From assembly GCA_005800325.1 (NCBI GenBank), contig SYFR01000362.1, forward strand, positions 1-34,400: a stretch of 34,400 bases of DNA, written 5' to 3'. The position numbers and the translations under genes were made by a program. The DNA is from Myxococcales bacterium. Its GTDB lineage: Bacteria; Myxococcota_A; Polyangia; Polyangiales; Polyangiaceae. Of the stretch, positions 8,872 to 34,400 are shown one piece after another. Numbering within the stretch: position 1 is the stretch's first letter; each line of letters opens with the position of its first letter. Under the pieces are notes generated by a model. The model worked only from the letters and a program-made list of their open reading frames with translations, was not told the origin of the DNA and made no database searches.

Positions 8872-10056
8872 TCAGTCTGCGGGACACTCCACGACGGCGC
8901 CGTGCGCGATCCAATCGCTGATCAGCTGGAGCGCGGCGAACGACTTCGAGCCGTCGGGATCGATCGGATTGCCATCCTTGTCGCTGCCACCCACGAGCCC
9001 GCGATGCTCGCCATTTTCGGCGGGCATGGGGAGGCCGACGACGACGCTCGCGCGCAGGCGGTCGAGCTCCGCCTGGTGCTGCGGCTCGAGCGCGCCGGGT
9101 TCGCGCGGGTGGTTCAGCGGGTTGGCGATCAGCTTGTACAAGAGGTAGCTCTGTCCAGGGTCGTCCGGGGCGATGAGCGCCATCGCCCGCCCGAACTTCG
9201 GACCGCTCGGCTCAGGCGCGAAGCTCGCCTCGCCCGTTGCCGTGCCATGCGCGACGACCCCAATCGCCGTGGCGGAGATCAGGCTTTTTCGGGAGAGGTC
9301 GAGCCCCATCGGCGCGGGGACGCCCGGAGCGGCCGCGTGGCAGGGCGAGTACGCGCACGACCCAAAGACCTCAGGAACGAACCCCGCGAGGACGTCACCG
9401 TCGCCTTGACAAGCGTCGTCGAGGCAGAGCGGCCGGCAGCCGTTGCGGCAGGTCTCGACGTCGGTCGCATCGGCACACGAGCGCAAGCACTTCTGCGCGG
9501 CGCAGTAGGCTTCGGCCGACGGCCCCAGCTCGTCGCGCGCGGTCGACGTGTCGGCCTTGGTCTTGAAGTCGAACGCATACGATCGCACGAGCGGCGCTCC
9601 GTCGAAGGCGCGAAGCCCGGTCGAGTCCTCGTCCCGCGGCGGAAATACGGTCAACCGGTACAGCGTGTCGGCGCTCAGCCGCGTGCCGGGCGCGAGCCGC
9701 ACGACGAGCTCGCGCTTCACGGGGTTGTACTCCGGGGCGGCGAAGGGCTGAAACGGCTCGACGCAGGCGTCGATGCTCGCAATGGGTGTCGCGCTCGGAT
9801 GCAGGCAAACGGCCTGGCGAATGGCGGTCGTCGGCAGCAGATAGCGATCGAAGAACAGCCGAAAGCTCGCCGAGACCTCGAGGCCTTCGGCGATCGAAGT
9901 CTCCGAGAGGGTGACCCGCTCACCGCCTCCATCGCCGTACGATCCCGTCGCGCTCACGACGCCGAGCTGCAGCGGCGGCCGGTCCGATCCGCGCGCCCGC
10001 GCGTTCTCCGGAGGGATCTCGACATCGCAGGCCGCCATGGCCGGCGCGAGGGCCAT
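8872..10056 (-). CDS. Lipoprotein with Ig-like region and C-terminal cytochrome c-like domain carrying CX4CH
   Basis: MALAPAMAAC lipobox-like N-terminus (start uncertain, short signal); C-terminal SCAYSPCH ... SYLLYKLI ... GLPMPAENGEH ... ISDWIAHGA, the layout of cytochrome c-like domains in large envelope lipoproteins. Confidence 0.7.
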   Translation of the reverse strand: MALAPAMAACDVEIPPENARARGSDRPPLQLGVVSATGSYGDGGGERVTLSETSIAEGLEVSASFRLFFDRYLLPTTAIRQAVCLHPSATPIASIDACVEPFQPFAAPEYNPVKRELVVRLAPGTRLSADTLYRLTVFPPRDEDSTGLRAFDGAPLVRSYAFDFKTKADTSTARDELGPSAEAYCAAQKCLRSCADATDVETCRNGCRPLCLDDACQGDGDVLAGFVPEVFGSCAYSPCHAAAPGVPAPMGLDLSRKSLISATAIGVVAHGTATGEASFAPEPSGPKFGRAMALIAPDDPGQSYLLYKLIANPLNHPREPGALEPQHQAELDRLRASVVVGLPMPAENGEHRGLVGGSDKDGNPIDPDGSKSFAALQLISDWIAHGAVVECPAD

Positions 10057-10157: not shown

Positions 10158-10412
10158 TCAGGACTCGGAGTAGATGCTCAGTTGGTCCGAAACGACCTTC
10201 TCGCTGATCCCCGTCTGGAGGTAATCCCGGAGGCAGTCCGAGAGCGTGAGAAGCAAGTCGTCCGCTCTGCCGTCCTCGATCAGCTTCTTCATCAACTTGC
10301 GCGCCTCGCGGCTGTCGTCCTCGCGGAGGAACGAGCGCATCGTGTCGAGCGAGATCTCCGCCGGGAAATCCAACTGCATGTTTTCGATGAGGTATTGAAT
10401 GAGCTCTTTCAC
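10158..10412 (-). CDS. Small conserved-looking protein (84 aa), unknown function
   Basis: Compact ORF MKELIQYLIENMQLDFPAEISLDTMRSFLREDDSREARKLMKKLIEDG..., helical and charged composition typical of a real small protein; GTG start. Confidence 0.6.
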   Translation of the reverse strand: MKELIQYLIENMQLDFPAEISLDTMRSFLREDDSREARKLMKKLIEDGRADDLLLTLSDCLRDYLQTGISEKVVSDQLSIYSES

Positions 10413-10541: not shown

Positions 10542-12014
10542 TCATCGGCAGGCTCCGAGGGACGCGTCGGTCGTCGCATGGCACACGAGGCAGGGTCGCG
10601 GATTGCGGCGCATCGCGTCGACGCAGTTGGCCTCGAACCCCGGGGCGTGGGGGTTCACACCCTGACCGCCGCGCGCGCCCTGCGTCGCGTGGCACGTCGC
10701 GCAGTCGCGCTCGGTATGGCACGAGACGCACGCGTTCAGGTTGCGCTCGGCCTCCCAGGAGTGGTGCTGCGGACTACGCGGGGCGACGGTCCACACGTCG
10801 GCCGCCGGGTGAAAGCGCCGGCCGGCGAGTCGATTCGCGCTCGGAGCGTCGCGCGCCACGCCGACCCTTCGATGGCAGTCGCCGCAGAACGTCGTCAGCT
10901 GATGGCAGCTGACGCAGCGTGGGTTGTCCTGCCTCGCCGCCTGCGCGTGTTGCGAGATCCAGTCGTCCGGGTGGACGTCGCGCGGTCGCACCTTGCCGTC
11001 GTGGCAGTCGGTACAAAACTCGGTCGCGTGGCAGCTGGCGCACAGCTCGCTGTTGGCGCCCGCGATGCCCTTGTGGCGGTCGAGCCAATCCGGCGTGTGC
11101 GCGGCTCCGTGAAGCCACACCGGGGGCACGAGCTGGCCAGTCGAGAACGTCGTCTCGAGTCGACCACTCGCCTCGGTCACATGGCACGTGACGCACGCGC
11201 CTTTCGCGTCGCCGGTCGCCGCCGCAGAGCGAGCGTGGCACGAAAAGCACCCGGCCATTCGAGGTAGCTGCTCGCGTGTCGCGAGCTCGAGCTCCTCGAT
11301 CTGCCCGTGGCACTGCGCGCAGCCGATGTTGCGCCGCAGATGCGCCTCGTGATTCATCTTGAGGTTCGGCGCGGGGACGACGACCTTGGCGACGCGGCCG
11401 CCCTTGCCAGCTTCGTCGCCGAGGTGGCAATAGCCGCATTGCCCGTTTGGCTCCGTGCCGGCGACTACGTTGGCGAGGTTCCGGTGGTCGACGTCGTGGC
11501 AGTTGTCGCAGGTCTTCGCCGGACTTGGCAGCAGCGTGTCCGTCGACTTGGCGCTTCGATAAGCCGCGGCGTGGCAAACCTTGCATGTCTGCTGCAGCTC
11601 TCCGACGTGCTTCTTGTGGTTGAAGCGAATCGTGAGCTGCTGCGGCGGAAAGATCTCGTCGCTCGGGACCGGGCTCGCGCTCGTTCCTGGCGGCATCCAC
11701 TCGAGGGGCACGAGCGTGTCTCCGAAGAGCGGCGCCAGGCCGTGCCTGCGATCGATCGCGGCGAGCGGCTCCGCGGGCTGGCCCGCAGCCGGCCCAGCAG
11801 AGGGCCCAGCAGAGGGCCCAGCAGAGGGCCCAGCAGAGGGCCCAGCAGAGGGCCCAGCAGAGGGCCCAAGCGTGGCGGCGTGTGCGCTCGCACCTGCTGC
11901 GGGCGCGTCAGCGGCGGTTGGCGCGGCGCTGGCCCCCGCGAGGCCGACCACGACCGCGAGCGCGCACGCGAGCGCGGCGACCCACCCGGGCAGGAGTCCG
12001 CGCGCCCCGGTCAT
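10542..12014 (-). CDS. Multiheme cytochrome c, 13 CxxCH motifs, exported
   Basis: Signal peptide MTGARGLLPGWVAALACALAVVVGLAGASA; CKVCH, CDNCH, CGYCH, CAQCH, CFSCH, CVTCH, CASCH, CTDCH, CVSCH, CGDCH, CVSCH, CATCH, CLVCH. ATG at 12014 overlaps the stop of the porin-like gene. Confidence 0.93.
   Translation of the reverse strand: MTGARGLLPGWVAALACALAVVVGLAGASAAPTAADAPAAGASAHAATLGPSAGPSAGPSAGPSAGPSAGPSAGPAAGQPAEPLAAIDRRHGLAPLFGDTLVPLEWMPPGTSASPVPSDEIFPPQQLTIRFNHKKHVGELQQTCKVCHAAAYRSAKSTDTLLPSPAKTCDNCHDVDHRNLANVVAGTEPNGQCGYCHLGDEAGKGGRVAKVVVPAPNLKMNHEAHLRRNIGCAQCHGQIEELELATREQLPRMAGCFSCHARSAAATGDAKGACVTCHVTEASGRLETTFSTGQLVPPVWLHGAAHTPDWLDRHKGIAGANSELCASCHATEFCTDCHDGKVRPRDVHPDDWISQHAQAARQDNPRCVSCHQLTTFCGDCHRRVGVARDAPSANRLAGRRFHPAADVWTVAPRSPQHHSWEAERNLNACVSCHTERDCATCHATQGARGGQGVNPHAPGFEANCVDAMRRNPRPCLVCHATTDASLGACR
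11791..11868. repeat. 12-bp tandem repeat (about 6.5 copies) encoding (GPSA)n in the cytochrome linker
   Basis: Perfect iteration of ggcccagcagag on the + strand; reads GPSAGPSAGPSAGPSAGPSAGPSA on the minus strand. Confidence 0.97.
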
Positions 12015-13705
12015 GGCACCTCTACCGTGAGCGTGCCCACCACGCGGAAGCGGTGGCCGACGAGTCGGTTCATGTCGTGCTCCCACTCGATCCGCACCTT
12101 GGTCCGCTCGACCGGCGCGACCTCGGGGGCGACGACGTATCCGAACGACGTCGCGTCCCGATCCGGACGGAGCGGATTGTGCCACTCGTAGGTCGAGACC
12201 CTTCCGCCGAGCGCGAGTGTCCCGGGGACGATGTCTTGATGCGCGCTCAAGGTCCCGCCAACACGACGCCCCCGATCGCTGTCGGTGCCACCGAACCCCG
12301 TCTCGAGGTTGGCGCGCGCCGTCGCACGACCCGTGCCCCAACGATGCGTCGCCCCGAAACTGGCCAGCAGATCGGGCGCGATCACGGTCCCGCGGCTCGC
12401 ACTGGCGCGTACGAACTCGGCTTCCGGCCCGGTCGTCGGTTCAAGGCCGTACTCGAGGCAGGCGCGCTCAAGTTCTGGCGTCGCGAAGCCCGCCGCGGTG
12501 CACTCGGCGGCCGCGAAGCCGGCGGGGCTGCCGTCCGTGAGCCACAGTCGCGTGCCGGCCTGGCCCGACAGCTCGAGGCGCGGCGTCGGGCGCGTCGCGA
12601 CCCGCGCGAGCGCCGTGATCGACGGATTGTGTGCAAACCAATTGAAGATGGAATCGGCGTCGAAGGTCGGCAGAAAAAACTCTCCGTCGAGTCCAACCGT
12701 CGTGCTCTCGCCGACACGCGCCTCGAGCCCCCCGTACGCGCGTGAGAGGGCCGCCGCGTAGACGTCGTAAACGAAACCTCCCCGTGCGCTGCCCACATCC
12801 GACAAGAACGCGGTGAGCGCGTAGCCGAGGCGCTCGTGCGAGATCCGGAGACCGCTGACTTCCTCGAGCCCTCCGCCGCCTGGCGCGGGAAACTGGGAAG
12901 TGAACGCGCCGCCGGAGTTATAGACGCGGCGGTAGTCGAAGCGACCGTGAACCCAGTTCGGCCCCGAGCTCTCGATCGCAGCGCCGAACGCCGGCGCCAG
13001 CGAGGCCTCTTGAAATGACGGAAACACTTGCGGCTCGTCCGCGAGGCCGCCATTGCGCGCGCCGCGCCACACGCCCTGGGCCTCGTACCGCGGCGTCGAG
13101 AGCGGAAGTCCGCCGCGTTGCTCGAACCCACCGAACGCCTCGACCGCGAAGAAATACGGAGTCGTCAGTCGCACGAGGCCACCGTCGAACGTCCACCAGC
13201 CGAGCACGTTCGTCGTCATCTGGCGCCCGACGCGCACGCCGAAGAGGCCTCGGGCGATATTGCGCGCCTCGACATAGCCGTGCATGAGGTCAATCGGAGA
13301 ATAGGCGAGCCCCGGCACGAAGCGGCTCCGATTGCTGGCGTCGTAGTTCGCCTCGGCATCGTCGACCCCAAAGTCGGCGTCGATGCGCATCCTCACGTGG
13401 ACGCTGTAGTCGGCGGCGAGCGGGTCCTGATTGCCCTCGAGGTCGTAGGCCGCAAAGCCGAGCGTCGTGGTCATTCGCCGCCGCCCCAAGATGACGTCCC
13501 CGAACGGGCTCACGACGTCGTAGCCCTGGGCGCTCACTGCCCCCTCGACCGCGGCCTCCACGGCGTGGGCGACGGACGGACGCAGCGCATTCGGCGCGAC
13601 GACGGCGAGCGCCACGAGCCAGCGCTTCGGTGCCCATGTGGCAACGCGAGCGGCTTGGCGCGGGACGACATTCATGAACGCGACGCGCCCCTCGAATCGA
13701 GCCAC
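12011..13705 (-). CDS. Outer-membrane beta-barrel / porin-like protein
   Basis: Signal-like N-terminus then alternating amphipathic strands (GLFGVRVGRQMTTNVLGWWTFDGGLVRLTTPYFFAVEAFGGFEQR, WVHGRFDYRRVYNSGG, ...KVRIEWEHDMNRLVGHRFRVVGTLTVEVP). 4-nt overlap with the cytochrome gene. Confidence 0.8.
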   Translation of the reverse strand: MARFEGRVAFMNVVPRQAARVATWAPKRWLVALAVVAPNALRPSVAHAVEAAVEGAVSAQGYDVVSPFGDVILGRRRMTTTLGFAAYDLEGNQDPLAADYSVHVRMRIDADFGVDDAEANYDASNRSRFVPGLAYSPIDLMHGYVEARNIARGLFGVRVGRQMTTNVLGWWTFDGGLVRLTTPYFFAVEAFGGFEQRGGLPLSTPRYEAQGVWRGARNGGLADEPQVFPSFQEASLAPAFGAAIESSGPNWVHGRFDYRRVYNSGGAFTSQFPAPGGGGLEEVSGLRISHERLGYALTAFLSDVGSARGGFVYDVYAAALSRAYGGLEARVGESTTVGLDGEFFLPTFDADSIFNWFAHNPSITALARVATRPTPRLELSGQAGTRLWLTDGSPAGFAAAECTAAGFATPELERACLEYGLEPTTGPEAEFVRASASRGTVIAPDLLASFGATHRWGTGRATARANLETGFGGTDSDRGRRVGGTLSAHQDIVPGTLALGGRVSTYEWHNPLRPDRDATSFGYVVAPEVAPVERTKVRIEWEHDMNRLVGHRFRVVGTLTVEVP

Positions 13706-14505
13706 TACACCCGGTCGATCTCGCCGTCGTCGCCGACGCGATATTCGCGCGCGTCACGCAGCCCCGTGCGAAGCGCATCGCGAAGCTCGACGCCTGCGGA
13801 CCACCCGGCACGTGCGAGTCCCTCGGCGACCTTGTTCTTGATGCGCACCGACTCCTCTTTGGCGAGCATCGCTACGAGCGCCGGCACGCAAGCAGCATCG
13901 CCCTCGGCGTAGAGCGTCTGTACGGCGTGGTAGCGGACGGTCTCGTTGACGTCGCTGAGGTACGCCTCGACGGCTCGCCGCGCGCCAGGGCTCTTCACGC
14001 TCTCGAGGGCCGCCAGCAGGTTGACCTTCGGCTCTACATTGCGCACGTACTCGGTGTCGTGACGCTCGAGCAGCGCCAACAGCTCGCGCTCGTAATCTTC
14101 ATCGACGAGCAGGCTCCTCAGCAGCTTGATGGCCCAGGTGAGCGTCTCGGCCGCCTCGCAAAACGAGCGCACGCGTTCGATGACCGCCTGCCGCAACGCG
14201 CTCCGTCCGGCATCGTCGAGCGGCACGCCCTTCTTGCCTGCCGCGATCGCGAGGATCCCGTCGAAGACGAGCTGCTTCTCGTCCTCGTCGGTGATCGACG
14301 GATCGACCTTGACGCCGAAGCGCTTGAGAAGCGCGCTCGCCGCTGCGCTCGTTCCTAGCTCGATGAGTTGCCGTAGCGCCTCGTCGCGGTCGTAGGCCTG
14401 AAGGCGGATGTCCGTCGCGGTCTTTCCGAGCGACGCCACCTTCGCCTCGGAGCCCCTCGTTTCGTCCCCCTGCGCGCGTGGCTTGAGAAAGTCGAAGAGA
14501 CCCAT
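13705..14505 (-). CDS. HEAT-repeat protein
   Basis: MGLFDFLKP start; repeat units such as VNLLAALESVKSPGARRAVEAYLSDVNETVRYHAVQTLYAEGDAACVPALVAMLAKEESVRIKNKVAEGLARAGW. Confidence 0.8.
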   Translation of the reverse strand: MGLFDFLKPRAQGDETRGSEAKVASLGKTATDIRLQAYDRDEALRQLIELGTSAAASALLKRFGVKVDPSITDEDEKQLVFDGILAIAAGKKGVPLDDAGRSALRQAVIERVRSFCEAAETLTWAIKLLRSLLVDEDYERELLALLERHDTEYVRNVEPKVNLLAALESVKSPGARRAVEAYLSDVNETVRYHAVQTLYAEGDAACVPALVAMLAKEESVRIKNKVAEGLARAGWSAGVELRDALRTGLRDAREYRVGDDGEIDRV

Positions 14506-14619
14506 GGGACGAGTGCCTAGACCAGAAGTTACGCCTAGCCCTGATTTGCTTGCCGCGGCACGGCGAGCGAGCACGGTGCGACTACCGAGCGGACCGGTGC
14601 GCCGCTCGAGCCGAATTGC

Positions 14620-15504
14620 TCAGTCCGATAGATTGATCGCCGTCGGGAGCTGGACGCTCGCGAACACGGTCAACATCGGATTGAAGTGGAACGAGCGATC
14701 GTTCGTGTCGATGGCGTCGTCCGGAAAGTTCGATTCCGGGCCGGCGATGTCAAAGCCCGAGGTGTTCCACGACAAGGGCGTCGCGCGGAACTCGGCGCCG
14801 AAGGACATGTAGTCCGTCGGATAGAAGTTGAACCCGAGCCCGAACGTCGCCGTTCCGGTCACGCGCGAGTCGAGCTTGAAATTGTCCGCGCACTCGCCCT
14901 TCGTGCATTCCGCGCGCTCGTTCAACCCGACGACCGCGGGGCCGAGAAACAGGCTGATGTCCGCGTCCATGAAGAAGGCACCGAAGAACGAAAACTTGCC
15001 GCGAAACGGGACCACCGTGAGCTGCGGCGCAAGCATCCACACGATGCTCCCGAGCTGGCTCTCCTCAAGACAGTTCGGTCCGCGGCACAGGCTCACCGCC
15101 GTGCGGCGACAAGCGAGCGTGTTCGGATTGTCCGCGCAGTCGCGACCGTCTACCGCCTTGGTCTGAAGCTCGTCGGCGAGCCCAGCGTTGTAGCTGATGC
15201 CGCCAGCACCGAAGAGGCCGGCCCCGAGCGAGTCCGTGAAGTGGTAGTTCGCCCGCGCGCCGAAGAGCACGTTGCGACGGAACTCGTCGAGCAGCGTGAA
15301 CGTCGCGTGTGGCGCGATGTCGAAGCGTCCGTCGCGGTGGAGCCGGAGGCGTCGCACGGCGGGGGCGCCCGCGAGGGGCCCAGTGATCTGGAGCTCCTGG
15401 GCGCTCGCGTCGGGCGCGGACGCGAGGACGATCGTGCCGGCAGTCAGACCGGCGAGTAGAGCGAGGCGACTCGTCATGTTCTTCATGGCAGCACCCTTCG
15501 TCAT
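14620..15504 (-). CDS. Outer-membrane beta-barrel protein, OMP_myx type (GltA/GltB- or NfsA/NfsB-like)
   Basis: Signal peptide MKNMTSRLALLAGLTAGTIVLASAPDASA; FDIAPHATFTLLDEFRRNVLFGARANYHFTDSLGAGLFGAGG and terminal amphipathic strands. ATG overlaps the upstream stop (ATGA); an internal ATG at 15486 is an alternative start. Confidence 0.75.
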   Translation of the reverse strand: MTKGAAMKNMTSRLALLAGLTAGTIVLASAPDASAQELQITGPLAGAPAVRRLRLHRDGRFDIAPHATFTLLDEFRRNVLFGARANYHFTDSLGAGLFGAGGISYNAGLADELQTKAVDGRDCADNPNTLACRRTAVSLCRGPNCLEESQLGSIVWMLAPQLTVVPFRGKFSFFGAFFMDADISLFLGPAVVGLNERAECTKGECADNFKLDSRVTGTATFGLGFNFYPTDYMSFGAEFRATPLSWNTSGFDIAGPESNFPDDAIDTNDRSFHFNPMLTVFASVQLPTAINLSD

Positions 15505-16469
15505 TTCGCCAGCTCGTACTTCCAGGAGAATGGCAAGAACACGGACAGGCCGAGCTGCGCCTGGACGTTATTCGTGAAGCTCTTGTCTGGCGCGAGCCAG
15601 GTGCTGGGATCCTGAGCTAGCGGGAGACCCCTCGAGTCGATCCCCGACGCGATCGATGGGTTCTCGAGATCCTCGAGGAACATATAGTCGCGAATTTCGA
15701 GCATCGCGGAGAGGTAGCGCGTGAAGAAAATGCGAATTCCGCCGCCAAAGCCCCAGGTCGGCTTGACCGACCAATCGAAGGTTCGGTTGTCGGGGTCGAC
15801 GACCGCCTTCGGACGCGTGCTCATCGCGCCTGCGCCGGCGAGGAAGTAAAAGTCGTAGTGGAAGATGAAGTTCGAGAGCACCGCGAACTTTCCATACGCT
15901 GGCACCAGCGTGACGTTCGCGTTCACGTTCCACTGGTACTCAGTGATCGGCTGACCCACGCGCGCCGCGCGGCTCGTCTCGAAGTTGAAGTCCGACTCCG
16001 CGTTGAGCTCTTGGTAGAAGTTGCCGTTTACGCCGCCCGCGAGCCAGTTCAGGACGTAATAGTTCAGGCCGACGCCGGGCCCGGGATGCGCGACGAACTG
16101 GTCGTTCATCGTGACGCTCCCGTACGGGTTGATCTCGAAGCGGCCCTTCCGCAGCGCCCAGATCTGCTGCACCGCGTACATGTCCGGCGCCAGCACGCGA
16201 TCTGCCGCGGCCTTCATGTCGACCTTGACACAGTTTTCGGGGTCGATCCTGCAGAGCTCCTCGAGGCTGCCGGCGTCCGCATCTCCGGCCTCTTCGCCCG
16301 CGACGGCGGTCGCGTCTCCGGTCGGGGCCGTGTCTTCCGCCGGAGTCGGAGCTTCGGCGGCGGCGCCCTCGGCGGCCTTGCCTTCTTCGGTCTGCGCCAG
16401 GCTCGGTGCGGCCGTGAGCACGAGCGCTACCGAGAACCAGAGCCCCACAGTAGCTTGCTTGATCGCCAT
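15501..16469 (-). CDS. Outer-membrane beta-barrel protein, OMP_myx type (GltA/GltB- or NfsA/NfsB-like)
   Basis: Signal peptide MAIKQATVGLWFSVALVLTAAPSLAQ; acidic/Ala linker; KGRFEINPYGSVTMNDQFVAHPGPGVGLNYYVLNWLAGGVNGNFY, the same layout as the next gene. Confidence 0.75.
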   Translation of the reverse strand: MAIKQATVGLWFSVALVLTAAPSLAQTEEGKAAEGAAAEAPTPAEDTAPTGDATAVAGEEAGDADAGSLEELCRIDPENCVKVDMKAAADRVLAPDMYAVQQIWALRKGRFEINPYGSVTMNDQFVAHPGPGVGLNYYVLNWLAGGVNGNFYQELNAESDFNFETSRAARVGQPITEYQWNVNANVTLVPAYGKFAVLSNFIFHYDFYFLAGAGAMSTRPKAVVDPDNRTFDWSVKPTWGFGGGIRIFFTRYLSAMLEIRDYMFLEDLENPSIASGIDSRGLPLAQDPSTWLAPDKSFTNNVQAQLGLSVFLPFSWKYELAK

Positions 16470-16543
16470 CCCTCTTTGCTCCGCCGCGGCAGCCAAGTGC
16501 CGGATCTTATTAAAGAAAACGGCTAGCCGCGAATTGACGGCGC

Positions 16544-21366: not shown

Positions 21367-23103
21367 ATGGCGAAGTCGTACCGCTGGTTGCTCGTGGCCC
21401 TGTCCCTCTCGCTCGGCGCAACCACCGCCGAGGCGCAAGGCAGGCGCGGGAAAAAGAACGGCAAGGACGAGAAGTCCGCGCCCGCGAAGGGCGGCAAAAA
21501 GACGATCGATCTCGACGCCGCCGAGGGCGACGACAAGGGCAAGGCCGAAGACGACGGCCCCGTAACCGCCGGCGAGATGACCGAGGCGGCCGCGCAGGCG
21601 AAGCGCCTATTCGATCAGGAGCGGTGGGGCGAGTCGGCGATGATGCTGAAGCAGGTCGTCGACGGCGAGACCAACGACGACGCCGGCAACCGCCAGATTG
21701 CACAGTATCACCTCGCGATCGCGCTCTACCGGCTCAAGTTTTTTCAGGCCAGCTACGACATTTTTCGCCGCGTCGCGGACAACCCGAACCACCTCAAGTT
21801 CAAGGAGACGCTGCTGTGGCTGGCCAAGCTCGCCACCCAGCTCCCGGAGCCGGCGGACATCATCGGCGCGGTCGGCAAGTACTCGAAGGATCAGGTCGCC
21901 CGCTTCAACAATGATCAGCAGCGCGATCTGTACTTTCAGCTCAACTACCTGCTCGGACGATCCATGTATCGCCAGCGTGAGTTCCAGCAGGGAATCGACC
22001 TCTTCTCGAACGTCAAGAAGGAGAGCCCCTACTTCGTCAAGTCCCAGTTCTTCATGGGGATCTCGTATGTGCAGTTGACGAAGAGCGCACCGGCCGTGCG
22101 CGCCTTTCAGCGCATCATCGACGCGCTCGACGAGGGCATCGAGGGCGTCGAGGACGAGGCACGCATGCGCGATCTGGCGAACCTCTCGATCGCCCGCACG
22201 CTCTATTCGGCGTCGACGAAGCTCGACCAGAACAACGTGCCGAAGATCGACGGGCAGAAGATTGGCTACGCCGTCCAGTATTGGAACCAGGTCGACGTCG
22301 CCAGCGAGTACTGGCTCGATGCGCTGTTCGAGCAGTCTTGGGCCTACTTCATGGCGAGCGACTTTCCGCGCGCCCTCGGCAACGTCCACACGATCCAGTC
22401 GCCGTACTTCCCCAACTCGTTCTACCCCGAGGCGGACATCCTTCGCGCCGTCATCTACTTCATGACGTGTCAGTACGACGACGCGACGTCGATCGTGGCG
22501 AAGTTTCAGACGCGCTACGAGCCGATTCAGAAAGAGCTCAATGCCATCCTGAAGCGCTTCGAGGGCGAAGGCAGCGAGCAGAAGTTCTACGAGTTTCTGA
22601 TCGCCGTGCGCGACGGCAAGGCGAACCTCTCACCCGCGGTCGAGCCCATCGTAAAAATAGCGCTCAGCGACCGCGAGCTGCTTCGCAACATCGAGTACGT
22701 CGCGGTGCTCGATCAGGAGCTCGAGCGGTTCGGCACCGCCAACAAGGGCTTCCAAAACAGCCCGGTCGGAGCCGACGTCGAGGACAACGTCAAGCTCGCG
22801 AAGACCAACGCCATTCGCAAGGCCGGCGAGCTGGCGCGACGCCGCTACCGCCGAAACCTCACCGAGCTCGGCGAGCATCTCCGTAGCGCGCAGAAGATCA
22901 TCGTCGATATCACGAACGCGCAGCGCAAGAAGCTCGACGAGGAGATCGAGGCGGGCAGGTGGTCCCAGGAGGACGCCTACGAGTTCGGCCAAGTGAAACC
23001 CGACGAAGAGCATGTGATCTGGCCCTTCGCGGACGAGTATTGGCGCGACGAGCTCGGCTTCTATCGCCAGGTGATGCAGTCGCAGTGCGGCAGCGGCAAG
23101 TAG
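21367..23103 (+). CDS. gltC: GltC-like (or NfsC-like) periplasmic TPR protein
   Basis: Signal peptide MAKSYRWLLVALSLSLGATTAEA, charged linker, TPR-type helices (AAQAKRLFDQERWGESAMMLKQVV..., QIAQYHLAIALYRLKFFQASYDIFRRV). Symbol inferred from architecture and context with neighbouring Glt-type genes. Confidence 0.6.
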   Translation: MAKSYRWLLVALSLSLGATTAEAQGRRGKKNGKDEKSAPAKGGKKTIDLDAAEGDDKGKAEDDGPVTAGEMTEAAAQAKRLFDQERWGESAMMLKQVVDGETNDDAGNRQIAQYHLAIALYRLKFFQASYDIFRRVADNPNHLKFKETLLWLAKLATQLPEPADIIGAVGKYSKDQVARFNNDQQRDLYFQLNYLLGRSMYRQREFQQGIDLFSNVKKESPYFVKSQFFMGISYVQLTKSAPAVRAFQRIIDALDEGIEGVEDEARMRDLANLSIARTLYSASTKLDQNNVPKIDGQKIGYAVQYWNQVDVASEYWLDALFEQSWAYFMASDFPRALGNVHTIQSPYFPNSFYPEADILRAVIYFMTCQYDDATSIVAKFQTRYEPIQKELNAILKRFEGEGSEQKFYEFLIAVRDGKANLSPAVEPIVKIALSDRELLRNIEYVAVLDQELERFGTANKGFQNSPVGADVEDNVKLAKTNAIRKAGELARRRYRRNLTELGEHLRSAQKIIVDITNAQRKKLDEEIEAGRWSQEDAYEFGQVKPDEEHVIWPFADEYWRDELGFYRQVMQSQCGSGK

Positions 23104-23204: not shown

Positions 23205-23324
23205 GGTAGCGTTGACTTTCGGTAGCAGGGTTGACTTTCGGTAGCAGGGTTGACTTTCGGTAGCAGGGTTGACTTTCGGTAGCAGGGTTGACCTTCGGTA
23301 GCAGGGTTGACTTTCGGTAGCAGG
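23205..23324. repeat. 19-bp intergenic tandem repeat, 5 full copies plus degenerate flanking partial copies
   Basis: GGTAGCAGGGTTGACTTTC at 23221, 23240, 23259, 23278 (one T>C) and 23297; leading copy at 23205 lacks AGG; trailing GGTAGCAGG at 23316. Confidence 0.98.
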
Positions 23325-23349: not shown

Positions 23350-26300
23350 ATGACTAGATCGAAGGCGGATCGGTTTCGGGTTGGAATTCTGTCGGGCGTC
23401 GCGGCGCTCTCGGCCGCGCTCTTCGCGGCGCCCTCGCCGGCGAGCGAGTGCACCTCGTCGCAAGCTCAGAAGACGCTCGCCGAATGTCCGGGCGGGAAGT
23501 TTCAGTCGAACGTCACGAAGCGGCCCCAGGTGAGCTTCACGACGGCGCCGGAGGCCATCAAGAAGAAGGACCGGACCGACGACATCAAGCCGGTGAACCC
23601 GACCGACATCACGCAAACGGCACAGCGCGACGAGCGTGCCTCGCGCCTCAAGCCAAAGGTGCGAAAGCTCCTCTTGACCGAGATCGCCAACGTCGAGCGG
23701 CTTTACAAATCGACTCCGAAGAACGACAAGGACCGGCCCCAGCTCATGCGGCGCCTCGCCGAGGGCTACGTCGAGCTCGAGTCGAGCGCGTTCAAGGACA
23801 AGGTCGAAGGCGAGGTCCGGGCGCAGGAGCTGCGTGCCAAGGACCCGAGCGGCGCATCGAAGGCGAAAGACGGCGTCAAGAAGGCGACCGAGATCATCAA
23901 GGTCGCGCGCAAGAACGCGATCACTTTCTACAAGCAGCTCAAGGACCAATACCCGAAGTGGTGCCAGTTTCCGGACAACCCGGAAGGGCAGCAGGGGTGC
24001 ATCGACGAGGTGCTGTACTACCTCGCGTACGAATACGAGCAGGCCGGCGACCTCGAGAACGCGCGCTCGGCTTACCTCGAGCTCACGGAAAACTGGAAGA
24101 AGTCTCGCTTCGTGCCGAACGCCTTCCTCGCGTTCGGCGAGCTCTATTTCCAAGAGGCGCAGGGCGACCCGAGCAAGTGGCCATTCGCGCAGAACTTCTA
24201 CAAAGAGGTGCTCAAGTACGACCCTCCGGAAAATAAGCTCTGGGGCTACGCGGCGTACAAGCAGGCCTACGTCTTCTGGAATCAGGGCGACTATGCGACG
24301 GCGATCGAGCAGTTCAAGAAGGTCATCGAGTTCGGTGGCAAATTCCCGCAGCTCCCCAACGCGAAGAGCCTGGCGAGCAGCGCGCGCCGCGACATCATTC
24401 CGGTCTACGCGCTCAAGGGCGATCCGGCGAAGGCGCACGACTTCTTCCGGCCGCTGAGCGGCGATTCGGGCGTATCGAACGCGGGCACGATCACGATGAT
24501 GGAGGCCCTCGGCGCCAACCTCCTCGACACCGGCCACTACGACGAGGCGGTCATCCTCTATCGCGACCTGATGAAGCGGAACCAGGGCGACCAGCTCTGC
24601 TTCTACCAGGCGCAGATCACGCAGGCCATCATGGCCAGCAAGAGCGGCAACAAGCCCGCCATCGTCGCCGAGCTCGAGAAGCAGCTCGGCACCTACAAAG
24701 AGTTCATGTCGAGCCGGCACGAGAAAGAAAAGCTCAAGTGCGCGAACACGACGGCGGCGGTCATGAGCGAGACGGCGATGGCCTGGCACCTCGAGGCCGT
24801 CGGCTCGGGCGGCGTGCGCGGCACCGGCGACGCGAAGACGATGGATCAGAGCGAGAAGCTCTATTCGCTGGTCATCGATAACTTCACGCCCGATCAGTTC
24901 CGCGGGTTCACCTTCCCGCGAATTGTCAAAGAGGACTGGCCGACCGTCTCCAAGATTCGCTACGCGATGGCGGACCTCCTCTACTTTCAGAAGAAGTGGG
25001 AGAAGTGCGGACCGGCGTTCGATCAGGTCGTCGCCGACGACCCCAACGGGCCGAATGCGGCCGAGGCGGCGTTCGCCTCCGTGCTCTGCTACCAAAACAT
25101 CTATGCCCAGCAGCACGCGGACGGCTCGCATCGAAAGGGCGGTGGCCACCTCGACGATGGCGCCGCGAAGGGCAAGAAACCGCAGAGCGACGCCGACAAG
25201 CTTAAGGCGAAGGAGTTCTCGCCCGGGCAGAAGGGCATGATCACCGCCTTCAACCGGTATGTTTGCTACATCAAGCCGCCGGACTCCGACAAAGAGGCGC
25301 TCGAGCAATACGTCGAGGTGAAGTACGCGCGTGCTCGCACCTACTTCGAGGCTCAGCACTGGCAAGAGGCCGCCCTCGCGTTCCGCGATGTGGCCATGAA
25401 CCATCATCAGCTCGACGCCGGGCTCTACGCGGCGCAACTCTACCTCGAGGCGCTCAACGTTCTCGGGACGCGTGTCGATCCGCCGAATCCGGACTGCCTG
25501 CTCGACATGGAGCAGGACGTGCCGAAGTTCATCGAGTTCTTCTGCAAAGATGACAAGCAGAAGCAGGAGAACGAGGAACAGTGCTCGGTGCTCTTCCGCA
25601 TCCAACGCGACGTTCAAGCGAAGCGCGCGGAGGCGCTCGTAAAGAAGGCCGACGGGGGAGCATCCAACCGCATCAAGCTCTACGAAGAGGCCGGGCAGCT
25701 CTACTTCAACCTCTGGAAGCAGTACGGCGAGCCGGCGTGTCGCGATAAGAAGCCGACCTGCGAGAAGAACGACAAGATCCTCTACAACGCGGCGCGCGCG
25801 TTCCAGGCGGCCCGCCTCATCGCCAAGTCGATCAAGATCCGGCAGATCCTCATCAACCCCGAGTTCAACCTGCACCAGACGGAGTCGGCGAAGCTCGCGG
25901 TCTATGAAATCGGCGGCAACTACCAGGCCATCGCGGTCTACGAGCTGGCGGCCGAATGGTACGAGCGATTTGCCAACGAGAACCCCAAGCTCGAGAAGGC
26001 GGACGACGCGCTCAGCGACGCCGTCGTCCTGCGCCTTGGGCTCGGCCACAACGACAAGGCGATCGAGGACGCGAAGCTCTTCGGGCAGCGCTACGGCGCG
26101 AAAGAGCCCGCCAAGGCGGCCCAAATCGCGTTCGCGATCGGCTCGTATTACGGCGAGCGCGAAGACTGGAAGAACGCCGAGAAGGCCCTCTCCGGGCAGA
26201 TTGGCAAGATCGACCAGCAGGCTACCGTCGACGTGAAGCTTCAGGCCCACGCGCTGCTCGGCCGCACCTACGCGGCCCTCGGCAAGGCGCCTCAGGCCGA

Positions 26301-27114
26301 GAAGGAATTCGGCGTCGTTCGCGACACCTGGAAGGATCCGGCGGCCGTTCAAAAGGCGCTCGCGGCGCTCGGCGGTGGCAAAGCCGCCGAGGTGCGCCGG
26401 CTCGTAAAATCGCTCACCGCCGCGGGCGAAGCGCTGTTCTTCTTCGCTGAAAAAGCGCGCGTGGCGCAGGTCGATGCCCTGGCGTTCCCGGTCTACAAGG
26501 GCAAGGGCGATCCGAAGGACGTCAACGACTTCACCAAGACGAAGGTGAAGGAGTGGTACGAGTCCAAAGAGAAGGCCATCGACCTCGTCAACAAGGACTA
26601 CCTCAAGATCGTCGAGCTCAAGCCCGAGCCGCCGCCGATGTGGGTCATCAAGGCGGGAGCGAGCGTCGGAAAGATGTGGGGGCAGTTCGTCGCGGACTTC
26701 AACAACGCGCCGTACCCCAAGGACTGGGACAAAGACGCCTACGTCCCCGGCTTCGATCCGCCGCTGCATTTCCACGAGCTGCGCGCGAGCTACAAGGCGG
26801 GCCTCGCCGAGGCGAGCGAGAAGTACAAAATCCGCGCGAAGGGCGCCTTCGTGACGTGCCTCGGGTACTCGACGAAGTTCCAATACTTCGACAAGGACTC
26901 CCGTTCTTGCGAGAAGTGGCTCAGCAAGGAATACGGCAAAGAGTTTCACCTCATCGACGAGTTCCGCGGTGCGCCGACGCGCGTGAACTCTCCGCTTGCC
27001 GAGCGTCCGCAGGCCGTCGCTCATGACGGAACCTCGCTCGTCTACGACACGCGCGAGCAGGAGGACAAGGAGTCCGGCGCCGAGGCGAAGGACGCAAAGG
27101 CGGGCGACAAATGA
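23350..27114 (+). CDS. gltD: GltD/AgmU-like large periplasmic TPR protein
   Basis: About 1250 aa, signal-like N-terminus, many TPR-like units (YEYEQAGDLENARSAYLELTENW, YAAYKQAYVFWNQGDYATAIEQFKKVIEF, QAHALLGRTYAALGKAPQAEKEF). Size, order and overlap with the following TPR lipoprotein match the Glt/Nfs layout. GTG at 23344 is an alternative start. Confidence 0.65.
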   Translation: MTRSKADRFRVGILSGVAALSAALFAAPSPASECTSSQAQKTLAECPGGKFQSNVTKRPQVSFTTAPEAIKKKDRTDDIKPVNPTDITQTAQRDERASRLKPKVRKLLLTEIANVERLYKSTPKNDKDRPQLMRRLAEGYVELESSAFKDKVEGEVRAQELRAKDPSGASKAKDGVKKATEIIKVARKNAITFYKQLKDQYPKWCQFPDNPEGQQGCIDEVLYYLAYEYEQAGDLENARSAYLELTENWKKSRFVPNAFLAFGELYFQEAQGDPSKWPFAQNFYKEVLKYDPPENKLWGYAAYKQAYVFWNQGDYATAIEQFKKVIEFGGKFPQLPNAKSLASSARRDIIPVYALKGDPAKAHDFFRPLSGDSGVSNAGTITMMEALGANLLDTGHYDEAVILYRDLMKRNQGDQLCFYQAQITQAIMASKSGNKPAIVAELEKQLGTYKEFMSSRHEKEKLKCANTTAAVMSETAMAWHLEAVGSGGVRGTGDAKTMDQSEKLYSLVIDNFTPDQFRGFTFPRIVKEDWPTVSKIRYAMADLLYFQKKWEKCGPAFDQVVADDPNGPNAAEAAFASVLCYQNIYAQQHADGSHRKGGGHLDDGAAKGKKPQSDADKLKAKEFSPGQKGMITAFNRYVCYIKPPDSDKEALEQYVEVKYARARTYFEAQHWQEAALAFRDVAMNHHQLDAGLYAAQLYLEALNVLGTRVDPPNPDCLLDMEQDVPKFIEFFCKDDKQKQENEEQCSVLFRIQRDVQAKRAEALVKKADGGASNRIKLYEEAGQLYFNLWKQYGEPACRDKKPTCEKNDKILYNAARAFQAARLIAKSIKIRQILINPEFNLHQTESAKLAVYEIGGNYQAIAVYELAAEWYERFANENPKLEKADDALSDAVVLRLGLGHNDKAIEDAKLFGQRYGAKEPAKAAQIAFAIGSYYGEREDWKNAEKALSGQIGKIDQQATVDVKLQAHALLGRTYAALGKAPQAEKEFGVVRDTWKDPAAVQKALAALGGGKAAEVRRLVKSLTAAGEALFFFAEKARVAQVDALAFPVYKGKGDPKDVNDFTKTKVKEWYESKEKAIDLVNKDYLKIVELKPEPPPMWVIKAGASVGKMWGQFVADFNNAPYPKDWDKDAYVPGFDPPLHFHELRASYKAGLAEASEKYKIRAKGAFVTCLGYSTKFQYFDKDSRSCEKWLSKEYGKEFHLIDEFRGAPTRVNSPLAERPQAVAHDGTSLVYDTREQEDKESGAEAKDAKAGDK

Positions 27115-29256: not shown

Positions 29257-31248
29257 ATGGAAGCCAAGCAGAATCTCGCACTCACGTTCGCGTTCTATCA
29301 GGGCAACGAGCTGATCCGTCGCGAGACGGTCGCGCAGGACATCATCAAGGTCGGCAAGGATCCGAAGAGCCACCTGCGCGTCGACGACGAACAGGCGGCG
29401 CGGACCCACGCGGTGATCGAAGTCCAGGACGAGATCACGCTCATCGACCTGGGCATCGAGGCTGGGACGATGGTGAACGGCGCGCGCGTGAACAAGTGCC
29501 GCCTCAACGCGGGAGACCAGCTGCAGATCGGCGCCACGGTGATCGTGCTCGAGCGTATCGAGGATGCGGGCGCGGTCGCCGCGGTTCCTGCCCCGGCCTC
29601 GTCGGCGGCCGCAGCGTTCGTTCCCCCTCCCGCAGTGAGCAATCCGTTTGCGGTAGCCGTGACCAGCAACCCGTTCGCGGCGCCGGCGAGCGTGCCGATC
29701 GCGTCGAATCCGTTCGCGGCCCCGAACCCGTTCGCGCCGTCGCACCGCGGCGGCGTGCCGAAGAACGCAGCCGAGGGCACGTACGAATACCAGATCGTCA
29801 AGGCTGGGCCGGCAGTGCCCCCGGAAGAGGTGGAGACGCCGGCGGATGCACTCGAGGTTCGCGTCCTCTGGGGCCGCAATCTCCTGCATGTCGCTCACCT
29901 GTCTCCGCCGCGCTCGTTCTACGTCGGCGAGGCGGAGGGCAAGGGCACGAGGGTTGATTTCTCGGTGCCGTCAGAGAAGCTCGGTGCAGGTGGGCGTGTA
30001 GCCATCGTCGAGGCCGGCGGTGGCAGCGCGTTCGCGGTCGTGCCGGCAGCGGCGGGCGGCTACGCCGAGACCGGCGGTCAGAAGGTGTCGCTCCAGGACG
30101 CTGCGAAGGCGCAGGGTGGTCGCATCGCGCTCAACCGTGGCACGAGCATCCGCATGGAGGTTGGGGATCTCGTGTTCGAGGTGAACTCGGTCGCGGGAGG
30201 CAAGAAGGTCGCGGCCGCGTTCTCGCTCGCGGCGCTCATCACGGGAGGATCGCTGCTCTACATCCTCGGCGCCGGCGTCGGCGTCGGCGGTTTTCTCGCG
30301 GCGACGGCGATGTTCACGCCGGATCTCAACAGCACGTCCGACGATCAGATGACCGACGAGCAGCGGTATCTGATTTCGCACTACCTCGAGTCCGCGGCCG
30401 AGCAGGAGCTCGAAGAGAAAGAGACCGAGCAAGTCTCTGAGGACAACGCCGACAACAAAGAGGGTGGCACCGGCACTCGCGCCAAGGGCGAAGAGGGGTC
30501 GATGGGCAATCCCAACTCGAAGGCGTCCGGCAATCGCTACGGCGTCGCCGGCCCTGCCGACAACCAAGATCCGCACATCGCGCGGCAGGCGGCGCTGCGT
30601 GACGCGGCGGAGTTCGGCATGATCGGGCTCCTGAATTCCGGTGCCGGCGGCGATCCGGATGCTCCGACGGCACCTTGGGGACGCGATGACTCGCTCGGCA
30701 ACGACCCGCTCAGCGCTCGCGGCAACATGTGGGGCGACGCGATCGGCGAGTCGTTCGGCGCCGGCGGCCTTGGCTTGACCGGCATTGGCGAGGGCGGTGG
30801 CGGTCGCGGCGAGGGGATCGGCCTTGGCAACATCGGCACCATCGGACACGGCGCTGGCACCGGCACGGGTCAGGGGTTCGGCTCTGGTCACGGTCGCCTG
30901 GGTCGCTCGCACCGCGCGCGCCCGCCACAGGTTCGCATGGGTGCGACGAGCGTGAGCGGCAGGCTTCCGCCCGAGGTCATCCAGCGCATCGTGCGCCAGA
31001 ACTTCGGTCGCTTCCGCGTGTGCTACGAGACGGGCCTTCGAAACAACCCGAACCTTCAGGGCACCGTGAGCGTGCGGTTCGTGATCGGGCGCGATGGCAG
31101 CGTATCGAACGTCGGCGGCGGCGGCAGCATGCCTGACAGCGGCGTCACGAGCTGTGTGACGCGCGCGTTCTACGGGCTGAGCTTCCCGCAGCCCGAAGGC
31201 GGCATCGTGACGGTTTCGTACCCGATCTCGTTCTCGCCGGCGAGCTGA
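29257..31248 (+). CDS. gltG: GltG-like protein: N-terminal FHA domain, TM segment, Gly-rich linker, AgmX/PglI (TonB-like) C-terminal domain
   Basis: FHA-like IIKVGKDPKSHLRVDDEQAARTHAVIEVQ...LGIEAGTMVNGARV; TM VAAAFSLAALITGGSLLYILGAGVGVGGFLAA; C-terminal VIQRIVRQNFGRFRVCYETGLRNNPNLQGTVSVRFVIGRDGSVSNVGG...VTSCVTRAFYGLSFPQPEGGIVTVSYPI. Confidence 0.72.
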   Translation: MEAKQNLALTFAFYQGNELIRRETVAQDIIKVGKDPKSHLRVDDEQAARTHAVIEVQDEITLIDLGIEAGTMVNGARVNKCRLNAGDQLQIGATVIVLERIEDAGAVAAVPAPASSAAAAFVPPPAVSNPFAVAVTSNPFAAPASVPIASNPFAAPNPFAPSHRGGVPKNAAEGTYEYQIVKAGPAVPPEEVETPADALEVRVLWGRNLLHVAHLSPPRSFYVGEAEGKGTRVDFSVPSEKLGAGGRVAIVEAGGGSAFAVVPAAAGGYAETGGQKVSLQDAAKAQGGRIALNRGTSIRMEVGDLVFEVNSVAGGKKVAAAFSLAALITGGSLLYILGAGVGVGGFLAATAMFTPDLNSTSDDQMTDEQRYLISHYLESAAEQELEEKETEQVSEDNADNKEGGTGTRAKGEEGSMGNPNSKASGNRYGVAGPADNQDPHIARQAALRDAAEFGMIGLLNSGAGGDPDAPTAPWGRDDSLGNDPLSARGNMWGDAIGESFGAGGLGLTGIGEGGGGRGEGIGLGNIGTIGHGAGTGTGQGFGSGHGRLGRSHRARPPQVRMGATSVSGRLPPEVIQRIVRQNFGRFRVCYETGLRNNPNLQGTVSVRFVIGRDGSVSNVGGGGSMPDSGVTSCVTRAFYGLSFPQPEGGIVTVSYPISFSPAS

Positions 31249-32675: not shown

Positions 32676-34400
32676 ATGCAAATTACGCAGCGCCTAGCCG
32701 AGCTTGAAGCTACACGCGAGTGGTCTGCATTTGCCGACGCGCTCGAGCAGGCCATAGAGCTCGAGCCGAGCGAGCCGGCAAAGGCCGAGCTCTTCTTGCG
32801 GCTCGGACGCACCCTGAACGAGAAGCTTGCGCGAGGGCCGCGGGCGCTCAAGGCGTTTCAGCAGGCGTGGAAGCTTCAGCCCGCGGACGTCGGCGCGCTG
32901 CACGAGGCGAGTCGGGCGTATTGGGATCTCGCCAAGATCAAGATGGTCGAGACGGTCCTCCGCAAGGGCCTCGCGGTCGTGACCGGCGAGGCGCGTGCCA
33001 AGGTGCTCGTCGACCTCGCCGACGTGCTGCAGGACCTCGGTGATTACGACGCCGCGCGCGAGTGTTGTCACGAGGCTGCGGCCGTCGATTCGCCCTTGGC
33101 GTTCGAGGCCCAGCTGTGCGGAGAGGACTTGAGCGTGGACGCGGCGTCGCAGGCCGACCGCATCGACGAGCTCGTCTCGGACGCCGCGGAGCGTTCCGAC
33201 GTGGCCGAGCGAGCGAGGCTGTTGATTCGGGCGGCCCGGATCGCGAGGCGGTTCGCGGCACCACGCCATGAGGAGCTGTTGCTGCTCGCGTATCAGGCCG
33301 ACCGCGGGGACCGGCAAACGGCTGCGCTCTACGAGGAGCTGCTCGCGAGCGATGGCCGACTCGACGAGGTCATGTCGCGCCAAGTCGAGCTCTTGGACGC
33401 CGCCGGCGGCCTCGAGCGATCGCGGTTGGCCCTTCGGTTCGGCGCGCGGTGGGCAACGCGGCACCAAGACCTCGCACGCGCGGCCGAGTTGTTCGAACGA
33501 GCGGTGCGTGCGGACCCAAGCAACGACGCGGCGTTTGCGTCGCTCGTCGAGTTGTGGGGCGCCCAAGAGGGCAGCGCGGGCAAGCTCCTCGCGCTCGCCG
33601 AGGAGCTCGTTGAGAGCGCCGGTGCCCCGGACTTCGTGCTGGCCGCTGCGGGCAAGGCCTCGTGGCGAATGCTTGGCGACATCGAGCGCGCCGGATCGTG
33701 GTTTGCTCGCCTGGCGCCCGTGGCACCGAACCATCCGGAGCTACGCGCCTATGAGGCGTGGCTCGGGGCACTGGAGCACGAGGCTGTCGGGGCGCGCGAA
33801 CCCGCGACGGAAGCGGGGTCGTGTGGCGACGTGGCTCGGTCGGCCCCACCCGCAGCTGGCGCACTGGCGTCGCCGACGGAAGAGGGCGATGTCAGAGGCG
33901 TTCCTGAGGACGGGCAGGCGGCCTTCAATACGACGGACGTCGACAGAGGGCTTCACGTGAGTGCCGAACAGGGCAGAGACGACGAGGAAAAGATGGTCGT
34001 GGACGAAGGGGACAGCGCGGTGAATTCGGTGGGTGACGAGGATCTCGACAACACGACGGAATTGGACTCGTTGGTCGACTCGGTGAGCGGAGCGGACATC
34101 GAAGCCGTGGTCGACTCGGTGAGCGGAGCGGACGTCGAGACCGTGGCCGACTCGGTGAGCGGAGCGGACATCGAGTCGGTGCCGAGCTCGCGTGAGGCGG
34201 CGCAAGACGTGGCGCGCGCCGTCGCGGATTCGGCCGATGCGGCCCTGGCGGCTCCCGCGGATGCCAGCCACGAAGCAAGCGCTGACGGGAACTCACCAGC
34301 GAGCCCCGCCGAGCCCGAGCCGTGCAGTGCCACGCCGGTCAGTGCCACGCCGGTCAGTGCCACGCCGGTCAGTGCCACGCCGGTCAGTGCCACGCCGGTC
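32676..34400 (+). CDS. Large TPR protein, 5' part only (AgmK/GltI-like candidate); runs off the window
   Basis: Manual translation from ATG 32676 is stop-free for 575 codons to the last base: MQITQRLAELEATREWSAFADALEQAIELEPSEPAKAELFLRLGRTLNEKLARGPRALKAFQQAWKLQPADVGALHEASRAYWD...; not listed in the ORF track because it has no stop in the window. Alternative upstream in-frame GTG exists. Confidence 0.75.
   Translation, partial: MQITQRLAELEATREWSAFADALEQAIELEPSEPAKAELFLRLGRTLNEKLARGPRALKAFQQAWKLQPADVGALHEASRAYWDLAKIKMVETVLRKGLAVVTGEARAKVLVDLADVLQDLGDYDAARECCHEAAAVDSPLAFEAQLCGEDLSVDAASQADRIDELVSDAAERSDVAERARLLIRAARIARRFAAPRHEELLLLAYQADRGDRQTAALYEELLASDGRLDEVMSRQVELLDAAGGLERSRLALRFGARWATRHQDLARAAELFERAVRADPSNDAAFASLVELWGAQEGSAGKLLALAEELVESAGAPDFVLAAAGKASWRMLGDIERAGSWFARLAPVAPNHPELRAYEAWLGALEHEAVGAREPATEAGSCGDVARSAPPAAGALASPTEEGDVRGVPEDGQAAFNTTDVDRGLHVSAEQGRDDEEKMVVDEGDSAVNSVGDEDLDNTTELDSLVDSVSGADIEAVVDSVSGADVETVADSVSGADIESVPSSREAAQDVARAVADSADAALAAPADASHEASADGNSPASPAEPEPCSATPVSATPVSATPVSATPVSATPV
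34074..34181 (+). repeat. 36-bp in-frame tandem repeat, 3 copies (VDSVSGADIEAV-type 12-aa unit)
   Basis: VDSVSGADIEAV / VDSVSGADVETV / ADSVSGADIESV at 34074-34109, 34110-34145, 34146-34181. Confidence 0.95.
34326..34400 (+). repeat. 15-bp in-frame tandem repeat (SATPV)n, 5 perfect copies up to the window edge
   Basis: agtgccacgccggtc repeated exactly at 34326, 34341, 34356, 34371, 34386; array probably continues beyond the window. Confidence 0.98.

Follow-up and report, generated by a model that had tools for sequence, protein, structure and literature searches.

The locus considered here, in which the start codon of the gene for an exported cytochrome with thirteen heme motifs overlaps the stop codon of the gene for a predicted outer-membrane beta-barrel, raises the question of whether the two products form an electron conduit across the outer membrane. 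Employing a combined approach of profile searches, gene-order comparison and structure prediction on the window (the whole stretch of DNA that was analysed, 34.4 kb in length) and on related genomes, we conclude that the barrel and the 13-heme cytochrome probably constitute a trans-outer-membrane electron conduit which represents a variant of the porin-cytochrome kind. All functional statements made about this conduit are drawn from homology, gene order and co-occurrence. The features of the locus, all of which are encoded on the minus strand, are as follows:

8872 to approximately 10056, minus strand: predicted lipoprotein with an Ig-like (Big_5) domain and a C-terminal monoheme c-type domain (lipobox Cys, CAYSPCH heme site, invariant Met-Pro)
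10158 to 10412, minus strand: conserved acidic protein of 84 aa without a signal peptide, between the cytochrome and lipoprotein genes
10542 to 12014, minus strand: exported 13-heme c-type cytochrome of 490 aa (13 CxxCH motifs, Cytochrome_C7, conserved distal His)
10545 to 11120, minus strand: C-terminal 7-heme part of the cytochrome (residues 299-490), the better conserved half
11121 to 11654, minus strand: N-terminal 6-heme part of the cytochrome (residues 121-298), cytochrome c7/ActA/QrcA-like
11780 to 11868, minus strand: 12-bp tandem repeat coding for a GPSA-type flexible linker between the signal peptide and the first heme
12011 to 12014, minus strand: ATGA overlap of 4 nt between the barrel stop codon (TGA) and the cytochrome ATG
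12011 to 13705, minus strand: predicted outer-membrane beta-barrel and putative porin-like sheath, 564 aa from a GTG start (alignment, predicted strands, PDB barrels)
13705 to 14574, minus strand: HEAT-repeat protein, upstream of the barrel gene
14620 to 15504 and 15501 to 16496, minus strand: two small OMP_myx_plus barrels, upstream of the HEAT-repeat gene

Conservation and gene order of the pair

The barrel and the cytochrome are conserved together in Polyangiales and also outside the order. A window-type cytochrome, defined as a profile match below 1e-40, was present in 46 of 59 related genomes and the barrel in 45 of the 59, the named relatives with the pair being Sorangium cellulosum and Polyangium, and both Sorangium and Polyangium are mainly aerobic soil organisms. 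The assignment of the order as Polyangiales follows from these named relatives and from genome sizes. Among the 44 Polyangiales loci with the cytochrome, 43 have the barrel gene immediately upstream on the same strand and the remaining one begins at a contig edge, while in a wider group the barrel profile matched 56 of 141 genomes, other classes included. The adjacency of the two genes extends beyond the window's own genome, contrary to what would have refuted the original prediction. The heme complement is similarly stable, with 13 motifs in 39 of 43 cytochrome homologues and 12 in the other four. What is found is a porin-like barrel gene adjoining the gene for an exported multiheme cytochrome, the two being kept together, which is the arrangement that defines conduits of the Pcc kind.

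The 4-nt overlap of the two genes, already noted in the original prediction, was observed in 35 of 39 homologous pairs, with a 1-nt overlap in two more, and its recurrence is accordingly beyond chance; this suggests that the barrel and the cytochrome are translationally coupled. Since the upstream neighbours differ between genera, the pair appears to move as a unit.

A number of neighbouring genes were evaluated as possible parts of the conduit and rejected. The HEAT-repeat gene is a neighbour only in the window's genus, Sorangium, Polyangium and close relatives, and an FtsY gene stands upstream of the two OMP_myx_plus barrels; most other genera do not retain these genes beside the conduit. 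The 84-aa protein was taken up as a near-constant follower of the cytochrome, but its gene occurs in 55 of the 59 genomes, conduit-free ones included, and being near universal it is regarded as a mere neighbour. None of the genes adjoining the conduit locus was recognised as an oxidase, carbon-fixation or siderophore gene.

The barrel

Besides the GTG start, an alternative in-frame ATG at position 13675 would yield a product of 554 aa with a more typical signal peptide ending in SVAHA. The 564-aa protein alone produced no match in Pfam, NCBIfam or PDB sequences, nor did a profile of 32 homologues match the PDB, and weak OMP_b-brl matches were obtained for six homologues. The homologue alignment contains two conserved motifs, GRQ..LGWW.FDG and PTFDADSI(F/W)NWF. 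An AlphaFold model derived from six sequences predicts 22 beta-strands at low confidence (pLDDT 47.8, pTM 0.37), and most of these strands fall on stretches that are amphipathic in the alignment of 32 sequences. The structural neighbours of the model in the PDB are outer-membrane barrels (TM 0.2-0.43), with the better scores belonging to TonB-dependent receptors such as PirA, OprC and BtuB, which possess 22 strands. As the model does not offer a reliable fold, the PDB comparison goes no further than indicating an outer-membrane barrel. The assignment of the 564-aa protein as a large outer-membrane barrel is supported by these predictions, and its strand number is provisionally placed at 22. 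The original barrel call is consistent with this low-confidence model and with its PDB neighbours, and the predicted size argues against a small specific porin.

The cytochrome

Translation from the ATG at 12014 gives a 490-aa protein whose N-terminus, MTGARGLLPGWVAALACALAVVVGLAGASA-AP, was judged by eye to resemble a signal peptide. A six-frame scan of the window (ORFs >80 aa) identified this as the sole CxxCH-bearing ORF, carrying 13 motifs, and 2000 rounds of shuffling of the protein generated a maximum of two, so that the coordinates and counts originally given for an exported 13-CxxCH protein proved right. The motifs divide into a group of six (residues 144-274) and a group of seven (residues 325-475), a division which the original prediction overlooked.

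The N-terminal part matches Cytochrome_C7 in Pfam (6.4e-18) and its PDB profile relatives are ActA of alternative complex III, PpcA and other c7-type proteins; the PDB/NCBIfam relatives of the 6-heme part also include QrcA. Against NCBIfam the cytochrome gave sub-threshold matches only, these being HmcA, QrcA, OmcA/MtrC and c7. The profile matches to ActA, QrcA and c7 stop short of the seven C-terminal hemes, and the 7-heme part is the better conserved, with a mean majority fraction of 0.64 versus 0.56 for the 6-heme part. The length of the GPSA-type linker varies among homologues. At L074, L078 and L079 the partner cytochromes are reduced to the seven C-terminal hemes and the 6-heme part is absent; since it is the 7-heme part that is retained in these shortened forms, this part would be the one tied to the barrel, and we regard it as the candidate for the portion that sits within it. 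In MtrA the main barrel contacts are likewise made by the C-terminal half (PMC7198977). The AlphaFold model of the cytochrome (pLDDT 31) offered no usable fold.

Relation to clusters with OmcB-like genes

Searches with the cytochrome profile additionally recovered another set, here called the second set, consisting of 12-13-heme cytochromes elsewhere in the group. In most of the 22 second-set clusters examined, a 10-34-heme gene and a barrel of 470-640 aa adjoin the cytochrome; the 10-34-heme genes, where scanned or searched, are of the Geobacter OmcB-like CxxxxCH/CxxCH type (TIGR01904), and several of the other clusters show TIGR01904 matches farther along the contig, past the cytochrome. A 100/100 branch of the cytochrome tree divides 21 sampled members of the second set from 50 of the window kind, and as both kinds are present in some genomes (G016, G024, G028, G033, G042, G044, G045 and G050) they are considered to be old paralogues.

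The barrels display the same relationship. The window-family barrel profile (A2) reaches second-set barrels (down to 1.2e-12), hhalign comparison of window-family with second-set barrels returned 98.3% and 99.0%, whereas a control family of unrelated myxobacterial barrels returned 0.2%, and conserved motifs are common to the window family and the OmcB-cluster barrels. At the sequence level, both members of the window pair have homologues in the OmcB-like clusters, namely the porin and the periplasmic cytochrome, and this homology is the main evidence that the pair may function in the manner of a porin-cytochrome conduit.

No TIGR01904 (OmcB-type) protein was found in five genomes of the window's genus, three of which are 97-99% complete; the window's own genome is approximately 68% complete. 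Similarly, no CymA/NapC-type quinol oxidase scored above cut-off in this genus, and a candidate in G001 was rejected because it is sub-threshold and falls inside the 13-heme gene itself. CymA/NapC matches above cut-off were recorded in several genomes with OmcB-like clusters, sometimes on the same contig.

A lipoprotein as probable third component

The Ig/monoheme lipoprotein escaped the CxxCH scan because its motif in the window is C-x4-CH. Among 26 homologues the heme site takes the form C-x2-CH or C-x4-CH, there is no variation in the CH of this motif or in the Met-Pro, and hardly any in the lipobox Cys and first heme Cys. In half of the homologues the Big_5 Ig-like domain was recognised, and six gave weak matches to planctomycete-type cytochrome c, while a weak FoxE-like match around the heme (E 6.6e-4) covers just 44 profile positions. 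The lipobox Cys codon is at position 10029 and the sole standard start shortly upstream is the ATG at 10056, which leaves nine residues before the Cys and thus a very short signal, for which reason the start coordinate is given as approximate.

The distribution of the lipoprotein coincides precisely with that of the 13-heme cytochrome: both are found in the same 46 genomes of the 59, and the lipoprotein is missing from the 13 others (Fisher p 2.5e-13, with shared ancestry disregarded). Two of these 13 (G005 and G032) are fragmented assemblies which nonetheless contain the barrel, and in G041, G053 and G055 the lipoprotein is present even though its gene and the pair lie on separate contigs. 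The Ig/monoheme lipoprotein is therefore likely to be the third member of the functional unit. The proposal of the pair as a possible electron conduit, while supported by co-conservation and by homology to the OmcB clusters, was incomplete in that it missed this component.

Concerning the location of the lipoprotein, an Asp after the lipobox Cys retains lipoproteins in the inner membrane of Escherichia coli, whereas in Myxococcus xanthus the retention signal is a Lys at position +2 and not Asp (PMC3222651). In the window lipoprotein the lipobox Cys is followed by Asp, and in light of the M. xanthus signal its placement in the outer membrane is plausible.

Proposed conduit and alternative explanations

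In the proposed conduit, the predicted 22-strand barrel would act as an insulating sheath, with the 7-heme C-terminal part of the cytochrome lying in or against it and the 6-heme c7/ActA-like part extending into the periplasm, where electrons may pass between it and carriers of the periplasm or inner membrane. The 6-heme part would serve as the point where periplasmic electrons come in or go out, with the 7-heme part in the barrel as their path, and the outside would be met either directly or via the monoheme lipoprotein. The lipid-anchored Ig/monoheme protein could in this manner provide the contact at the outer face, replacing the multiheme OmcB/MtrC of known systems.

Points against a conduit are the low-confidence models of the barrel (pLDDT 47.8, pTM 0.37) and cytochrome (pLDDT 31), as well as the lack of an OmcB-type gene and of an above-cut-off CymA/NapC in the window's genus, where the window's own genome (G000) is approximately 68% complete.

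The barrel might instead be a substrate porin in its own right, with the cytochrome serving as a soluble electron carrier in the periplasm or as a feeder of a terminal reductase (c7/ActA/QrcA-like), the two being co-transcribed without forming a conduit. Such an arrangement would agree with the ActA, QrcA and PpcA-type periplasmic cytochromes found as PDB/NCBIfam relatives of the N-terminal part, with the failure to find an OmcB-type surface cytochrome in the window's genus, and with models of the barrel and cytochrome that are too weak for a complex; it is nevertheless improbable, as the coupling of the pair is almost invariant across dozens of genera, as barrel and cytochrome recur beside OmcB-like genes in related clusters, and as the barrel shares its motifs with the OmcB-cluster barrels. 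It is also possible, although somewhat doubtful, that the pair is indeed a conduit whose lipoprotein feeds the 13-heme protein from the inner membrane or the periplasmic leaflet and makes no contact at the outer face. The Cys-Asp lipobox would signify inner-membrane retention by the E. coli rule (PMC3222651), a lone heme is a small complement for a surface terminus, and the lipoprotein gene is located apart from the pair in some genomes. Against this, the Lys signal of M. xanthus would make the outer membrane the default destination (PMC3222651), and surface lipoproteins are the usual third member in Mtr and Pcc systems.

The direction and purpose of electron flow represent a separate matter. 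A conduit that runs inward for the oxidation of metal or sulfur compounds, or that serves reductive iron acquisition or detoxification rather than respiration of an external acceptor, would suit its presence in soil organisms with a mainly aerobic lifestyle, Sorangium and Polyangium among them, the absence of above-cut-off CymA/NapC from the window's genus and the weak FoxE-like match at the lipoprotein heme (E 6.6e-4). We consider this rather unlikely, since the genes for oxidases, carbon fixation or siderophores were not found adjoining the locus and the FoxE match spans such a small number of profile positions.

Returning to the conduit with a lipoprotein at its outer face, we tentatively advance the broader proposal that it may represent a third conduit architecture which is order-wide, employs a single-heme Ig lipoprotein as its surface terminus and forms a standard part of the envelope of mainly aerobic soil myxobacteria, many of them without OmcB-type extracellular respiration genes. 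If the locus does encode a conduit, outer-membrane electron wires would be among the core traits of Polyangiales (Sorangium, Polyangium and relatives), an order noted for natural products and large genomes rather than for extracellular electron transfer. The locus would then offer a defined three-gene target for establishing why such bacteria need a conduit, as well as a natural comparison, within one phylum, between conduits that have a multiheme surface cytochrome and conduits that do not, the forms trimmed to a 7-heme core included.

Comparison with known systems

Membership of the MtrAB/PioAB family was rejected. Neither the window barrel nor any other protein of its genome matched MtrB_PioB (PF11854) or the NCBIfam MtrB/PioB model, and the 32 barrel homologues likewise failed to match the Pfam model; the cytochrome did not match the MtrA/DmsE decaheme family, and no MtrA chain was present among its PDB profile relatives at E values up to 0.01. 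The suspicion that the barrel is of a type distinct from MtrB is borne out by these results, and it does lack an N-terminal CxxC, as had been remarked. By analogy, the locus may share with the MtrCAB and PioAB systems of Shewanella and Rhodopseudomonas the principle of a multiheme cytochrome inside a large barrel, but differs from them in having 13 hemes as opposed to 10 and no N-terminal CxxC in its barrel, and in a low-confidence model (pLDDT 47.8) the barrel has 22 predicted strands compared with about 26.

The 6-heme N-terminal part resembles ActA of alternative complex III, QrcA and cytochrome c7 in sequence, although those proteins serve as subunits or carriers in the periplasm and have no barrel as partner. 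With Geobacter Pcc (OmbB-OmaB-OmcB), for which OmbB and OmaB were compared by architecture, the locus has in common a porin adjoining an exported multiheme cytochrome, and related clusters in the window's group hold an OmcB-like CxxxxCH/CxxCH cytochrome (TIGR01904); in contrast, the window's genus has a monoheme lipoprotein in place of an OmcB-type gene, and the cytochrome carries 13 hemes rather than 8.

A search of the open-access literature found nothing on these genes, or on such electron transfer, in Polyangiales, an absence which is no proof. In the parts of Shi et al. (2014, PMC4245776) that describe them, the two-gene pcc clusters of Anaeromyxobacter and Kuenenia consist of a porin-like protein and a periplasmic 12-14-heme cytochrome, without a gene for an outer-membrane multiheme cytochrome, and in both respects they resemble the pair in the window. 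Their cytochromes are given there as 338-344 aa, as opposed to 490 aa with a linker here, and an Ig/monoheme lipoprotein is not mentioned for them in those parts of the paper. On the basis of this description, the two-gene clusters of Anaeromyxobacter, compared on architecture, are the closest published parallel to the Polyangiales locus (PMC4245776).

Neighbouring gene and other features of the window

Beside the gene for the 13-heme cytochrome lies a small open reading frame, judged to be a neighbour of the candidate conduit rather than a part of it:

10158-10412, minus strand: acidic protein of 84 aa without a signal peptide

This protein was found in 55 of the 59 related genomes at an identity of at least 55% to the Sorangium copy. 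Family assignment gave no confident result, returning a single sub-threshold Pfam match.

Elsewhere in the window, a Ser/Thr kinase is encoded at 692-2620 and an FHA-domain protein, also matching the T3SS YscD cytoplasmic domain, at 29257-31248. Between two plus-strand genes for TPR-repeat proteins (21367-23103 and 23350-27114), a 19-bp unit (GTTGACTTTCGGTAGCAGG) is repeated six times in tandem at 23211-23324. A 36-bp repeat was observed at 34072-34196, and a 15-bp repeat is present in five copies at 34325-34400, the extreme end of contig SYFR01000362.1, whose terminus probably falls within a repeat.

Cytochrome variants and related clusters

At three loci from related genomes (L074, L078 and L079) the cytochrome partnering the barrel is reduced to its C-terminal seven hemes, a naturally occurring minimal form of this protein. 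Separate clusters (loci L083-L086 and L089-L106), hosted by several genomes of the Polyangiales and others in the group, combine an OmcB-like multiheme cytochrome (10-34 hemes) with a barrel of 470-640 aa and a 12-13-heme cytochrome, some with NapC/CymA-like genes on the same contigs. They appear to be complete porin-cytochrome clusters, in lineages that have received little study.
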